From assembly GCA_019347715.1 (NCBI GenBank), contig JAHWKU010000001.1, positions 124,001-188,000 of the forward strand: a stretch of 64,000 nucleotides of DNA, in the 5' to 3' direction. Under the pieces are notes generated by a model, which was not told where the DNA came from, ran no database searches, and was given only the letters and a program-made list of their open reading frames with translations. Source of the stretch: Actinomycetota bacterium (GTDB taxonomy: Bacteria > Actinomycetota > CADDZG01 > JAHWKV01). Positions 31,890 through 37,658 of this stretch are shown piece after piece. The first letter of the stretch is position 1. Every line of letters begins with the position of its first letter. The position numbers were made by a program, and so were the translations under genes.

Positions 31890-31910
31890 AACTGACGGAA
31901 GGAGATGAGG

Positions 31911-33164
31911 ATGAAGTACTCGGTCGGGAAGGTGGCGGTATTCGCAGGAGTCACAGTGCGAACGCTGCATCACTACGAAGAGATAGGGCTTCTATGCCCG
32001 AGCGATAGGTCGCCATCCGGTTACCGGCTATACGACGACGCCGACCTCGAACGTCTGCAACAGATCCTGTTCTATCGAGCGCTCGGCTTCTCGTTGGAAG
32101 ACATAGGTCCAATCCTGGAGGGGGAAGCCGACACTATGGAACATCTTCGCACTCAACACCGGATGCTCCTAGAACGAACCAGTGAGCTTCAGCGAATGGT
32201 CGCTGGAGTAGAAAAAGCAATGGAGGACAAGATGGCAGGAACCACACCGTCACCTGAACAACGATTTGCCGCTCTCACAGTCACTTCCATCGACCTGCCG
32301 CTCGAGCGACTGGCGTCCGGCAAGGTTCGTGAGATATTCGAACTCGGCCCGGACCGTTTGCTTTTCGTAGCGACCGACCGTATCTCCGCTCACGACGTGA
32401 TCATGACCCAGGGCATCCCCGACAAAGGGAAGCTACTCACCGCAATGAGCTTGCTCTGGTTCGATCTGCTCAAAGACGTCTGCCCTAACCACTTGTCCGG
32501 CGAAGCAGTACCAGCCTCGCTGAACGCCGATCTTTTGGCGGGGCGAAGCCTCGTCGTGCGTCGTCTGGAGATGTTGCCTGTGGAGTTCGTCGTTAGGGGC
32601 TACCTGACCGGATCGGGGTGGAAGGACTACAAAGCCGCTGGAGCGGTGTGCGGCATCCCCCTGCCACCCGGGCTGCAGGAGTCGCAGCAGCTCGATGAGC
32701 CGATATTCACTCCCGCTACGAAAGCCACGACCGGCCACGACGAGAACATCTCTGAAGACATAGCGGCCGACCTCGTCGGGCCGGACGTGCTGAAGGTTGC
32801 GAAAGGTTACGCACTCGAGGCCTACCGAGTGGCTGCGGAGTATGCGGTGTCCCGCGGAATCATCCTCGCTGACACCAAGTTCGAGTTTGGAACCCTGGAC
32901 GGGGAGGTCATCATGGGCGACGAGGTGCTCACCCCCGACTCATCTCGGTTCTGGCCGGCCGAGTCGTGGGAGATCGGCAAGACGCCGCCTTCGTTCGACA
33001 AACAGTATCTGCGCGACTGGCTCAACTCGACCGGTTGGGATCAGAACCCGCCTCCTCCGGACCTTCCTCCCGATGTCGTTGCCGCTACGAGGGCGCGCTA
33101 CATCGATGCCTACGAAGCTTTGACCGGCACGTCGTTCGATCGGTACCTCGCGGAGACGAGCTGA
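31911..33164 (+). CDS. TipA-type MerR DNA-binding domain fused to SAICAR synthase (PurC)
   Basis: A 417-residue fusion. Residues 1-70 are a MerR winged helix (KYSVGKVAVFAGVTVRTLHHYEEIG then SGYRLYDDADLERL), about 75-108 a dimerising helix (RTQHRMLLERTSEL...), and about 122-417 a complete phosphoribosylaminoimidazole-succinocarboxamide synthase with SGKVREIFEL, DKGKLLTAMSLLWF, GYLTGSG, FTPATKA, DTKFEFG and DEVLTPDSSRFWP in order. PurC joins CAIR and aspartate with ATP in purine synthesis. The ATG at 31911 has GGAAGGAG at good spacing; ATG 31905 lies inside it. The frame is open with no sign of a frameshift. In TipA proteins the effector domain is TipAS; here the enzyme takes that place. An internal ATG at 32232 with GGAGG could give PurC alone. 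Confidence 0.9.
   Translation: MKYSVGKVAVFAGVTVRTLHHYEEIGLLCPSDRSPSGYRLYDDADLERLQQILFYRALGFSLEDIGPILEGEADTMEHLRTQHRMLLERTSELQRMVAGVEKAMEDKMAGTTPSPEQRFAALTVTSIDLPLERLASGKVREIFELGPDRLLFVATDRISAHDVIMTQGIPDKGKLLTAMSLLWFDLLKDVCPNHLSGEAVPASLNADLLAGRSLVVRRLEMLPVEFVVRGYLTGSGWKDYKAAGAVCGIPLPPGLQESQQLDEPIFTPATKATTGHDENISEDIAADLVGPDVLKVAKGYALEAYRVAAEYAVSRGIILADTKFEFGTLDGEVIMGDEVLTPDSSRFWPAESWEIGKTPPSFDKQYLRDWLNSTGWDQNPPPPDLPPDVVAATRARYIDAYEALTGTSFDRYLAETS
32222..32234 (+). promoter_or_regulatory. Internal ribosome site and start within the MerR-PurC gene
   Basis: GGAGG (32222-32226), five bases, then ATG 32232 in frame at codon 108. The following residues MAGTTPSPEQRFA line up with the start of TipAS (MGINLTPEEKF), which Streptomyces makes from an internal start. 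Initiation here would produce a 310-residue stand-alone SAICAR synthase. Confidence 0.6.
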
Positions 33165-33365: not shown

Positions 33366-34013
33366 CTAAGCCCCCTTCTTTCGGGCAGCACCTCTCTCCG
33401 GCAGCATTACCGCTTGGTTCCGCCCTCCCGCCTTTGCCAAGTACATGGCCCTATCGGCTTCGGAGATCAGACTCTTCGACCTTTCGCCTCGAGGTTTCTC
33501 GATGGCATGCATTCCAAGTGAGATCGTGACTGTCAGCCCCTCGAAGGGATCGGATGAAATAGCGTTACAGATGCGATCCCCCAGCTCTTTCAGCTCTCTA
33601 CGTGACGATTCCGGTACGAGAAGTGCGAACTCCTCACCCCCGTAGCGCGCAAAGGAATCGATATCTCGAATCTCTGCTTGAATTCGAGAGGCAACTTCGA
33701 TGAGGACTTCATCGCCTACTTCATGCCCGTGTTCGTCGTTCAATTGTTTAAAGTTGTCGATATCAATGACTCCGACCCCAAAGGAGCGGCCGAACTTCTC
33801 CGAGCGCTTGGCTTCGAGTTCCAACTGCTGTTCAAAGTGTCGGAAGTTCCACGTTCCTGTCAGGGCGTCGCGTCCCTCTTCCAGTCCGGCTGCCAAGTTC
33901 AATTCTCGAAGCGATGAACGAAGGGCCTTCTGACAAATTGAAGAGACAGGCAGCTTTGCTTCTTTTACGGCCGCAGCAAGTTGATCATTGAGGTAGATAT
34001 TCACCTTGGGCAT
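33366..34013 (-). CDS. Diguanylate cyclase (GGDEF) with N-terminal ribbon-helix-helix-like domain
   Basis: A 215-residue protein. Residues 1-38 (MPKVNIYLNDQLAAAVKEAK, PVSSICQKALRSSL) look like the ribbon-helix-helix of CopG/CcdA-type DNA-binding proteins. Residues about 48-205 are a GGDEF domain: metal-binding DIDNFKQLND, active-site GGEEF at 125-129, and an inhibitory-site RxxD (RDID 116-119) five residues before it. Both suggest active, feedback-inhibited c-di-GMP synthesis. The ATG has AGGAGG at good spacing, and that site sits inside a dyad that the RHH domain might bind. No sensor domain or membrane segment is present. Confidence 0.82.
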   Translation of the reverse strand: MPKVNIYLNDQLAAAVKEAKLPVSSICQKALRSSLRELNLAAGLEEGRDALTGTWNFRHFEQQLELEAKRSEKFGRSFGVGVIDIDNFKQLNDEHGHEVGDEVLIEVASRIQAEIRDIDSFARYGGEEFALLVPESSRRELKELGDRICNAISSDPFEGLTVTISLGMHAIEKPRGERSKSLISEADRAMYLAKAGGRNQAVMLPERGAARKKGA

Positions 34014-34538
34014 ACTATCCTCCTATGGGGTTATAGGGAGGATAACTCTCTACTAGTTAAATAGCAAGAGAAAGATCGCCTCGGCAGCACAGGAATCCTC
34101 CGAAACGAAGAGCGCTCGAACCCTGCGTGTAGAGCCCGAGGGGCACACACTCGTGCTCAAACCGAACGATTGACAGCCTCTTAAGTCCGCCGGATACTCT
34201 GGCTTGGCGCGGTCCAGCGCCTAGCCAACCGGAACCACCCAGCGGGTACCGGGCTCTGGCGAGGGGGGAACACACTCGGGCCAATTTCGTCAACTCGCTT
34301 CCGAAGTGGTGGCCTCGTCGCTGGGGACGGGCACCCTTTGAAGGCGATGCAAAGGTGGCCGGCGTGGCGGGGAGATCACTGATCCGAAACGGAGCAAGGA
34401 GATTCTGACTCAAGCTCCGCCTGGGCCTGCACACTTATTCCGCGCTGACATTAACGAACTAGTGGTGCTATCGCTCTCAGGCCGAAAAAAAGAAGCTTGT
34501 GATCGAGTCGTGGCACGAGGGACGAGGCGTATTGTGAC
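34014..34538. other. 525-base intergenic region
   Basis: Apart from the dyad at 34016-34044 I see no gene or RNA here. A 125-codon minus-strand frame (34057-34434) has no ribosome site and random-looking composition. Confidence 0.6.
34016..34044. promoter_or_regulatory. Dyad over the ribosome site of the RHH-GGDEF gene
   Basis: TATCCTCCTAT and ATAGGGAGGATA flank a short centre, an inverted repeat with one inserted base. One arm contains the AGGAGG ribosome site of the gene at 34013. It could be an operator for the RHH domain or an mRNA hairpin masking translation. Confidence 0.5.
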
Positions 34539-37500
34539 ATGAGCGATAGAGCGATGCCGGAACTGCCGACAGGGACCGTGACATTTCTCATGACCGACGT
34601 CGAAGGCTCGACGCGTCAGTGGGAAGCTCATCCAGACAACATGCGCGTTGCCACCGAGAGCCTTAACGAAATCCTCTACGACGCCATCGGAAAAGCAAAT
34701 GGCAGTCGTCCCGAAGAACAGGGAGAAGGCGACAGCGTGGTGGCCGCGTTCTCGCGAGCGAGCGATGCCGTGGCAGCTGCCTTGGATATCCAGCAGAAGC
34801 TTGTAAAGGAAGTATGGCCGGACGGAATTGCCCTCCGTGTGCGAATGGGAATCCACACAGGAGAAGTCCAGCTACGCGGTGAACGCAACTATTTCGGCCC
34901 TCCGCTAAATCGTTGCGCGCGACTGCGCGACCTGGCCCACGGCGGCCAGATTTTGTTGTCTCCGGCGACTGAACAATTGGTCAGGGGTTCGCTTTCTGCA
35001 GGGTCCCGCCTCCGGGATATGGGACCTCAGAGAATGAAGGATCTTTCCCAGCCCGAACGCGTCTTTCAACTTACGCATCCCGACTTGCCCGACGAGTTCC
35101 CTCCCCTGAAATCCCTCGAAGCGTTGCCGAACAATCTGCCCGTTCAATTGACAAGCTTCGTCGGCCGCGAAAGAGATATGGAGAAGATCCGAAAGCTGAT
35201 TTCCACTTCACGTCTTGTCACCCTCACCGGAGCAGCCGGCTGCGGCAAAACCCGGCTCGCCGTACAGGTCGCGGCGAATTTATCCGACGAGTTCGACGAC
35301 GGAGTTTGGTTCGTCAACCTCGCCGCCGTTACCGACCCTGCCCTCGTCCCCCACTCCACTGCCGCAGCCCTTTCAGTACAAGAGGAACCGCGCAGAGCCA
35401 TCGTCGAAACCCTTATCGATCACATGCGGGACCGCAGAATGCTACTCATCTTCGACAACTGCGAGCACCTTCTCGCAGCCTGTACGGAACTGGCCGCCGT
35501 ACTCCTCAAGTCGTGTGTGGAATTGGTGATAGTCGCCACGAGCCGCGAACCACTGGGGGTGGAAGGAGAAACTTCTTGGAGAGTGCCTTCGCTGGCTATC
35601 CCAAACCTTGAGAGTCAGGGCTCACCCGATGAATTGATTAACTACGAGGGCACACGCTTGTTCATGGAACGCGCGGTTGCTGTCGCCTCAGACTTTCGAG
35701 CCGACTCAGACGAGGTGCTCGCAATAAGCCAGATCTGCCGGCGACTCGATGGCATACCACTTGCGATCGAACTGGCCGCGGCCCACGTCGATGTCCTCAC
35801 ATGCGAGCAGATCGCATCGAGACTGGATGATCAGTTCCGCATCCTGACCGGAGGAGCCCGCACGGCTCTCGAACGACAACAAACTATGCGGGCCGCGGTC
35901 GAATGGAGCTACGAGCTGCTCACCGATTCAGAGCGCTTAGTCCTCGACCGACTTTCTGTGTTCGTTGGTGGATTCTCCTTGGAGGCCGCAGAGGAAGTAT
36001 GCGCAGACGAAACCGTAGAAGCCTTCGATGTCTTCCGGCTGCTGTCATCCCTCGTTAGGAAGTCGTTAGTGATAAGCGAGAGACGCCCGCATGCGGTCCG
36101 ATATCGGCTGCTAGAAACGATCAAGCAATACGCGCGAGATCGCCTGCGTGAATCCGGCGAAGGGGCCGAGGTTCGGGCCCGTCACCGAGACTGGTTTCTT
36201 GAACTCGCCGAGCGCGCCGAGCCTGAACTAACGGAAGGAGGAAGACAGGTCACGTGGATGGCGCTATTGGAGGAGGAGCACGATAACCTCCGCGCAGCGC
36301 TCGAGTGGTGCGCGGACGATGAGGATCCCGGCCCCATGGCCCGCCTGTCTTCCGCGCTGCATTGGTTCTGGTACGTGCGCGGCTATGCCGGTGAGGGACG
36401 CCGCTGGTTCAAAAGGGCGCTCGAACGACGCGAGCAGCTCCCAACAGAACTCATGGCCAAGGCGCTTCATAGTGCCGGATTACTTGCTTGGGTTCATCAC
36501 GACCACAGGGCCGCGCTCCCACTGCTGAATGAGAGTCTGTCGATTAGAAGGGAGTTGGATGACAAACGAGGCATCGCTCAGACACTAGGAACTTTGGGAA
36601 ACGTTCACTCCTCCTTGGGCGACAACGAGAGTGCAGCGGCCTTGTGGCAAGAGAGCCTCGAAATCCGTCGCCGAATCAATGATAAGCGGGGGGCTGCAGC
36701 CGTACTCGCGAATCTGGCCGTCTTGACAGCAGGTAAAGGCAACTACGAGGACGCATTGAAGTCGTACGAGGAGTCCGTCGCACTAAACCGAGAAGTCGGA
36801 GACCGGCACAACGAAGCTTTGTCACTCTTTAACATCGGTGGGATCTGGGATGCTCAGGGCGATTACGCCACGAGCCGTCGCTACTACGAAGAGGCCCTCA
36901 CGATTGGGCGTGAGCTCGGGGCAAGTCAACTGACCATTATTTGTCTTGGCTTTCTTGGTGGAACTGCCTTCAACCAAGGCGACTATGAAGCGGCCAGGAG
37001 CTGGTGGGAGGAATGTGCCGACAAGAGCCGCCGAGCCGAACACGTTTGGGGAGAGTCCTTCACTCGCGGGACGCTTGCGTATCTCAGTGCGAGCTACGAG
37101 GAGGGCAGGAGATTGTGCGAAAAGGCGGCAGCCATTTCCCGAGAGGCTGGTGAGAAGGGACCTTTGAGGTCTGCGCTTAGATGGGCTGCCCAATGCGCCA
37201 TGGGAGAAGGTGACTCGGTAAGGGCAAAGACATACCTGAAAGAAGCGCTCGAGATCTCGAGAAGTCTGGAACCGGACTCGGCGAGACTTGAGCTACTGGC
37301 TCTCGCAGAAGTGGCGCAGGCAGAGAATGATTTTCAGCAAGCAGCTGATTTTGGACGCCAGTCCCTCCCGATGGCTCGTGATCATCGAGACCGCCAGAGC
37401 ATGGGTTTCGCCCTGCAAGCTATTGGAGCCGCAGAGATCGGCCTCGGCGATATGGACCGGGCAGCCCAACTGTACGCTGCGGGACAAAGGGTTCTCGACG

Positions 37501-37658
37501 AGATCGGCGCGAAGCTCTATCCGCACATGCAGCCCGCCTTTGAGGCCTCGGTTTCGTCTCTCACCAATGCGCTGGGGGCTGAAAAATTCGACGAGCTTTG
37601 GGAAGCAGGAAGGTCGATGCCCCTCGAAGATGCGATCGATCTGGCGTTGCGGTCTTAA
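34539..37658 (+). CDS. Class III nucleotidyl cyclase / NB-ARC-type ATPase / TPR protein (paralogue 2)
   Basis: A 1039-residue protein of the same layout as the gene at 3811. Cyclase domain about 8-185: metal Asp20 (MTDVEGST) and Asp65, Asn124 and Arg128 for catalysis, and Gln61 with Asn117 in the substrate-selecting positions. A Gln/Asn pair in place of Lys/Asp has been described for mycobacterial Rv0386. The ATPase has Walker A GAAGCGKTR (Lys237) and Walker B LLIFDNCEHL, followed by a winged-helix-like region and TPRs from about 640 to 1000 (SLGDNESAAALWQESLEIRR and similar). No DNA-binding domain is present. An ABC exporter pair follows on the same strand. Confidence 0.88.
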   Translation: MSDRAMPELPTGTVTFLMTDVEGSTRQWEAHPDNMRVATESLNEILYDAIGKANGSRPEEQGEGDSVVAAFSRASDAVAAALDIQQKLVKEVWPDGIALRVRMGIHTGEVQLRGERNYFGPPLNRCARLRDLAHGGQILLSPATEQLVRGSLSAGSRLRDMGPQRMKDLSQPERVFQLTHPDLPDEFPPLKSLEALPNNLPVQLTSFVGRERDMEKIRKLISTSRLVTLTGAAGCGKTRLAVQVAANLSDEFDDGVWFVNLAAVTDPALVPHSTAAALSVQEEPRRAIVETLIDHMRDRRMLLIFDNCEHLLAACTELAAVLLKSCVELVIVATSREPLGVEGETSWRVPSLAIPNLESQGSPDELINYEGTRLFMERAVAVASDFRADSDEVLAISQICRRLDGIPLAIELAAAHVDVLTCEQIASRLDDQFRILTGGARTALERQQTMRAAVEWSYELLTDSERLVLDRLSVFVGGFSLEAAEEVCADETVEAFDVFRLLSSLVRKSLVISERRPHAVRYRLLETIKQYARDRLRESGEGAEVRARHRDWFLELAERAEPELTEGGRQVTWMALLEEEHDNLRAALEWCADDEDPGPMARLSSALHWFWYVRGYAGEGRRWFKRALERREQLPTELMAKALHSAGLLAWVHHDHRAALPLLNESLSIRRELDDKRGIAQTLGTLGNVHSSLGDNESAAALWQESLEIRRRINDKRGAAAVLANLAVLTAGKGNYEDALKSYEESVALNREVGDRHNEALSLFNIGGIWDAQGDYATSRRYYEEALTIGRELGASQLTIICLGFLGGTAFNQGDYEAARSWWEECADKSRRAEHVWGESFTRGTLAYLSASYEEGRRLCEKAAAISREAGEKGPLRSALRWAAQCAMGEGDSVRAKTYLKEALEISRSLEPDSARLELLALAEVAQAENDFQQAADFGRQSLPMARDHRDRQSMGFALQAIGAAEIGLGDMDRAAQLYAAGQRVLDEIGAKLYPHMQPAFEASVSSLTNALGAEKFDELWEAGRSMPLEDAIDLALRS

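Follow-up and report, generated by a model that had tools for sequence, protein, structure and literature searches.

The RHH-GGDEF gene encodes what appears to be a diguanylate cyclase that probably switches its own gene off. In the reading that we consider fairly likely, its ribbon-helix-helix (RHH) head dimerises and binds an operator of three half-sites lying over the gene's own promoter and ribosome-binding site, repressing its transcription. Computational analysis found both domains, intact active-site motifs and an operator array, and showed that the operator motif is shared with other genes of the same head family. The fusion is known from a single instance, in one draft genome of 2.43 Mb that is 90% complete. 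The gene is a single intact reading frame (Table 1) with a G+C content of 0.53, slightly below the 0.59 of the window, i.e. the whole stretch of 64,000 nucleotides that was analysed. The protein begins with MPKVNIYLNDQLAAAVKEAKLPVSSICQKALRSSLREL, after which the GGDEF domain follows.

Table 1 Coordinates of the RHH-GGDEF gene, its protein domains and the elements upstream of its start codon
Feature	Position	Strand	Remarks
RHH-GGDEF gene	33366..34013	(-)	intact frame, ATG start, 215 aa
GGDEF diguanylate cyclase domain, aa 48-200	33414..33872	(-)	Pfam PF00990, 138 bits (cut-off 23.8 bits)
CcdA/VapB-type ribbon-helix-helix head, aa 1-40	33894..34013	(-)	Pfam PF07362, head alignment, VapB26 profile match
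Putative operator half-site 3, GAGGATA on gene strand	34016..34022	(+)	inverted, 5/7 to GGGGTTA; overlaps Shine-Dalgarno
Shine-Dalgarno GGAGG of RHH-GGDEF gene	34019..34023	(-)	5 nt before ATG; read from sequence
Putative operator half-site 2, TAACCCC	34027..34033	(-)	exact motif; inside CTATAACCCC 34027-34036
Putative operator half-site 1, TATCCTC	34038..34044	(-)	5/7 to TAACCCC; 11 bp from half-site 2
Promoter-like TTGCTA-17-TATCCT	34039..34067	(-)	8/12 consensus, by eye, below scan threshold

An initial annotation of this DNA had likened the N-terminal ~38 residues to CopG/CcdA DNA-binding domains, and this resemblance is borne out by profile matches. Against the Pfam CcdA family PF07362, the head scores 21.2 bits (aa 3-52, whole protein) or 22.6 bits (genome search with the CcdA model), values that straddle the curated cut-off of 22.4. 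A profile built from the head family matches the RHH antitoxin VapB26 (PDB 5x3t) with an E-value of 0.0024 and another RHH protein with an E-value of 0.07. An RHH assignment of the head is supported by these sequence comparisons, and the residues likely to contact bases from its strand are K3, N5 and Y7, with N5 and Y7 invariant and K3 near-invariant across the family. The same annotation had held that a prediction of plain helix would speak against an RHH domain. A single-chain AF2 model, made with no head homologs in the alignment, shows helices at residues 3-18 and 25-44 and no beta-strand, with low confidence, and a Foldseek search with this head model gave no fold match. RHH strands pair only in the dimer, so that this low-confidence single-chain model neither supports an RHH fold nor amounts to the plain-helix prediction in question. 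RHH antitoxins such as CcdA and VapB26, whose DNA-binding domain the head matches, repress their own operons. Unlike in these antitoxins, the C-terminus here is an enzyme and no toxin gene adjoins.

The GGDEF domain is apparently a working enzyme that makes c-di-GMP, judging from its motifs. GGEEF lies at aa 125-129 and an RxxD inhibitory site (I-site) at aa 116-119, five residues ahead of it, as the initial annotation had noted in calling the domain apparently active; an alignment with 27 GGDEF relatives upholds both motifs. The catalytic and I-site columns match those of the relatives, all columns invariant there are kept, and the metal and substrate residues (IDIDNFK..ND..GH..GD; D..Y..K..G.N) are conserved. 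AF2 models the domain with high confidence, and the closest solved structures in the PDB are diguanylate cyclases of the 5llw and PleD types. Like PleD, WspR and 5llw-type cyclases, the protein combines GGEEF with an RxxD I-site, but its input domain is the RHH DNA-binding head, whereas theirs is a receiver or a phytochrome. Only a short linker, from about aa 40 to about aa 48, separates the end of the head from the start of the GGDEF domain, so that the two domains are closely coupled.

Directly upstream, a dyad at 34016-34044 had been described as including the ribosome site. Its arms are indeed perfect (TATCCTCC-13 nt-GGAGGATA, at 34016-34023 and 34037-34044), and the overlap with the Shine-Dalgarno sequence is confirmed. 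However, the same DNA can be re-read as TATCCTC-CCTA-TAACCCC-ATAG-GAGGATA, that is, as three half-sites with centres exactly 11 bp apart. The perfect inverted arms correspond to the outer two half-sites plus one extra base each, and the middle is the exact half-site of the head family, TAACCCC. When the 150 bp upstream are shuffled 20,000 times, a triple array of this kind at 11-bp steps arises once; 100 shuffled versions of the whole window contain 315 TAACCCC sites, and it arises at none of them.

How widely is this half-site shared among genes that encode the head? A second copy of the head, 55% identical across 38 residues, is encoded in the genome itself by a gene whose protein also has two Clp_N stretches (L003:1501-2214); in a 396-genome sample of the phylum, these two heads are the only strong matches to the head profile (85-90 bits; next best 46). 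A three-sequence profile run on 297 genomes of another class of the phylum recovered ten further genes with strong head matches (L161-L170), which come from actinomycete-like genomes distant from this one and are not independent, several sharing one taxonomic family. Their C-termini are, by eye, similar to the Clp_N-type C-terminus of L003. The same head also occurs on a Rhodococcus koreensis plasmid (L160:83-727), near the end of the record, with an unassigned C-terminus and an annotation as CcdA family antitoxin. Eleven aligned heads have 17 invariant positions. For this family, mostly ClpC2-like Clp_N proteins of unknown function, a literature search found no paper.

TAACCCC, on either strand, is present within 150 nt upstream of 12 of the 13 head genes, including the RHH-GGDEF gene; the exception is the Rhodococcus gene, with none in the 82 nt available upstream. 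Across the 13 genes there are 20 sites in 1.88 kb of upstream sequence vs. 1 in 42.9 kb of flanking DNA, a ratio that is strong but not an independent probability, given that the motif was found post hoc and the outside loci are partly related. With the Rhodococcus gene left out, dinucleotide-shuffled upstream sequences of the other 12 genes contain 0.5 sites on average and at most 3. Of 13 loci that encode other RHH antitoxins and served as controls, 12 have no TAACCCC and the remaining one has a single copy. Two distances between half-sites prevail, 10-11 and 22-23 bp, i.e. one and two helical turns, for example in TAACCCC-TCTA-TAACCCC of L003 and TAACCCC-ATA-GGGGTTA of L169. The motif is thus shared by head genes that differ in their C-termini. 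In L161 and L162, the half-sites run right up to the start codon, which suggests leaderless transcripts. Since TAACCCC is common to the head genes and the dyad consists of three such half-sites at 11-bp steps, the dyad is most likely the conserved self-operator of the head family. The earlier proposal that the cyclase may bind its own operator is strongly supported at the sequence level by this common motif.

An alternative is that the dyad acts in RNA, with a hairpin that buries the Shine-Dalgarno sequence (thermometer or leader control) and an only incidental likeness to an operator. In line with this, the predicted fold of the 46-nt leader has -12.2 kcal/mol and pairs the Shine-Dalgarno, a stability that only 2 of 200 shuffles equal, and of the 49 ORFs in the window with at least 200 aa, the RHH-GGDEF gene is the only one whose ribosome-binding zone is reached by a perfect 8-bp inverted repeat. 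However, the fold of a longer leader does not stand out from its shuffles (z -0.93), there is no Rfam match, and the paralog L003 has direct repeats and no dyad, while the DNA half-site is common to head genes. Moreover, the likely transcription start lies inside the array, and the transcript may therefore lack the left arm of the dyad. A role in RNA is less likely than a self-operator, and we regard it as improbable.

The position of the array suits repression, since it overlaps a promoter-like element, the presumed transcription start and the Shine-Dalgarno sequence. Consensus promoter scans found none for the RHH-GGDEF gene, and the promoter is weak by consensus; the promoter-like element corresponds in position to TTGACC-17-TATAAC before L003. 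RHH proteins contact DNA as dimers, which often sit next to one another at steps of one helical turn, and repression of the own promoter is common among them. By analogy, the RHH head would dimerise the cyclase, and dimeric heads would occupy the three half-sites side by side on one face of the DNA at 11-bp steps. Occupation of the operator would then repress the gene's own transcription.

The head could also matter for catalysis. A GGDEF domain needs a partner to be active, and in PleD and WspR it is receiver or coiled-coil domains that dimerise it; here an RHH dimer would bring two GGDEF domains together, each head supplying the partner that catalysis requires. This general need for dimerisation, the short linker between head and enzyme, and the presence in the same genome of a paralogous head with the same motif could also mean that dimerising the GGDEF domain is all that the head does, the operator being a leftover carried along when the head was swapped in from an RHH-Clp_N gene. 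We consider this unlikely, as the likely DNA-contact strand residues K3, N5 and Y7 are retained, and three half-sites in exact 11-bp phase persist over the promoter where a useless operator should decay.

Self-repression is compatible with a further possibility, namely that the RHH-Clp_N protein L003 controls the RHH-GGDEF gene through the shared operator, either in addition or instead, which would couple c-di-GMP synthesis to a Clp_N ligand. Our confidences in the two readings overlap, and control by L003 seems to us a doubtful though serious prospect. CTATAACCCC is found upstream of both genes, as are promoter-like elements that correspond to each other, and the 55% identical heads have the same likely contact residues; on the other hand, the arrangement of the half-sites differs between the two genes, and cross-binding would be a conjecture from the shared sequence. 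CTATAACCCC has six copies in the 2.43-Mb genome, of which two are promoter-positioned, before the two head genes, and the other four are inside ORFs. Paired half-site patterns, which were derived from the head-gene sites themselves, match with no mismatch only the two head genes in this genome, and therefore no wider regulon of such form is visible.

A search for the same two-domain order, proposed in the initial annotation, did not find it elsewhere in the genomes covered: no RHH-GGDEF fusion was present in 24 genomes of the class, in the 395 other genomes of the phylum sample, among the best 80 matches listed from a genome collection, or in viral contigs, and no such protein was found in the full-text literature as far as this was covered. 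With the head alone as query, phages gave no match and plasmids a single one. Plasmid proteins matching over most of the protein at 35-40% identity were also seen, none of which was recovered with the head alone. CcdA-family matches in the phylum were rejected as fusions, the inspected frames among the matches listed looking like stand-alone antitoxins, some beside a PIN-like gene. Homologues lacking the N-terminal domain had been named as a finding that would argue against the reading. The head is indeed missing from GGDEF relatives, which is what a fusion would lead one to expect, and the reading stands because the relatives of the head carry the operator.

Close precedents for the proposed logic are PdeL, CdbA and ClpC2. 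PdeL, an HTH-EAL trigger phosphodiesterase of E. coli, is likewise a c-di-GMP enzyme whose N-terminus is a DNA-binding domain acting at the promoter of the enzyme's own gene, and its self-activation is inhibited by high c-di-GMP (PMC5052742). Unlike the protein described here, PdeL breaks c-di-GMP down, its DNA-binding domain is a LuxR-type HTH, and it activates its gene from a site that lies relatively far upstream (PMC5052742); here, a synthase has an RHH head, and the sites lie over the promoter and ribosome-binding site, suggesting repression. CdbA, an RHH c-di-GMP receptor of Myxococcus, binds direct repeats one helical turn apart as well as its own promoter region, and c-di-GMP and DNA compete for it (PMC7156744). 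The fold, the repeat spacing, the binding at the own promoter and the link between c-di-GMP and DNA binding make it similar, but CdbA is small and has no enzyme domain, its RHH is itself the part that binds c-di-GMP, and its action is genome-wide (PMC7156744). Finally, the mycobacterial Clp_N protein ClpC2 represses its own promoter and is released from the operator by a ligand (PMC10030653), a case of self-repression via an operator next to the start codon that the RHH-Clp_N relatives resemble in logic. In contrast to the RHH-GGDEF protein, ClpC2 has no GGDEF domain and is reported to bind DNA by its C-terminal Clp_N part, at the operator CGTCAAC-n5-GTTGACG (PMC10030653). In logic, the L003 protein itself is similar to ClpC2, a self-repressor that a ligand releases, but it has a head of the RHH type and another operator.

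In PdeL, the clear case that we found in which a c-di-GMP enzyme binds the promoter of its own gene, that enzyme degrades the signal. A synthase having an operator of its own would be its counterpart, and the same molecule would exert gene-level control over c-di-GMP synthesis. As a speculation, GTP, or c-di-GMP via the I-site, might alter operator binding and thereby make synthesis self-limiting; control of DNA binding by c-di-GMP is also what the earlier suggestion that output and sensor may be one molecule would imply. In a far-reaching version that we hold to be less likely than not, the protein could be a single-molecule c-di-GMP homeostat, in which the RHH head would hold the synthase at its own operator and c-di-GMP at the I-site would change the geometry of the head and hence operator binding, so that the enzyme would be sensor, output and regulator of its own gene. 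Head and operator would then form a portable self-regulation module, placed in one genome on a Clp_N sensor and on a cyclase. For the RHH-head family as a whole, TAACCCC at 10-11-bp steps provides a testable candidate operator.

The flanks of the RHH-GGDEF gene are a SAICAR synthetase ORF and a cyclase-AAA-TPR ORF; neither is a toxin gene of the kind that would adjoin a type II toxin-antitoxin antitoxin. The divergent neighbour (34539-37658, (+)) encodes a 1039-aa protein with a nucleotide-cyclase-like domain, an AAA/STAND-type ATPase and TPR repeats. On the other side, a single frame (31905-33164, (+)) combines a MerR-type DNA-binding region (aa 5-98) with the SAICAR synthetase PurC (aa 136-382). 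An internal ATG at 32232 has GGAGGA just 5' of it, so that the frame may represent either a genuine fusion or a pair of genes that overlap.
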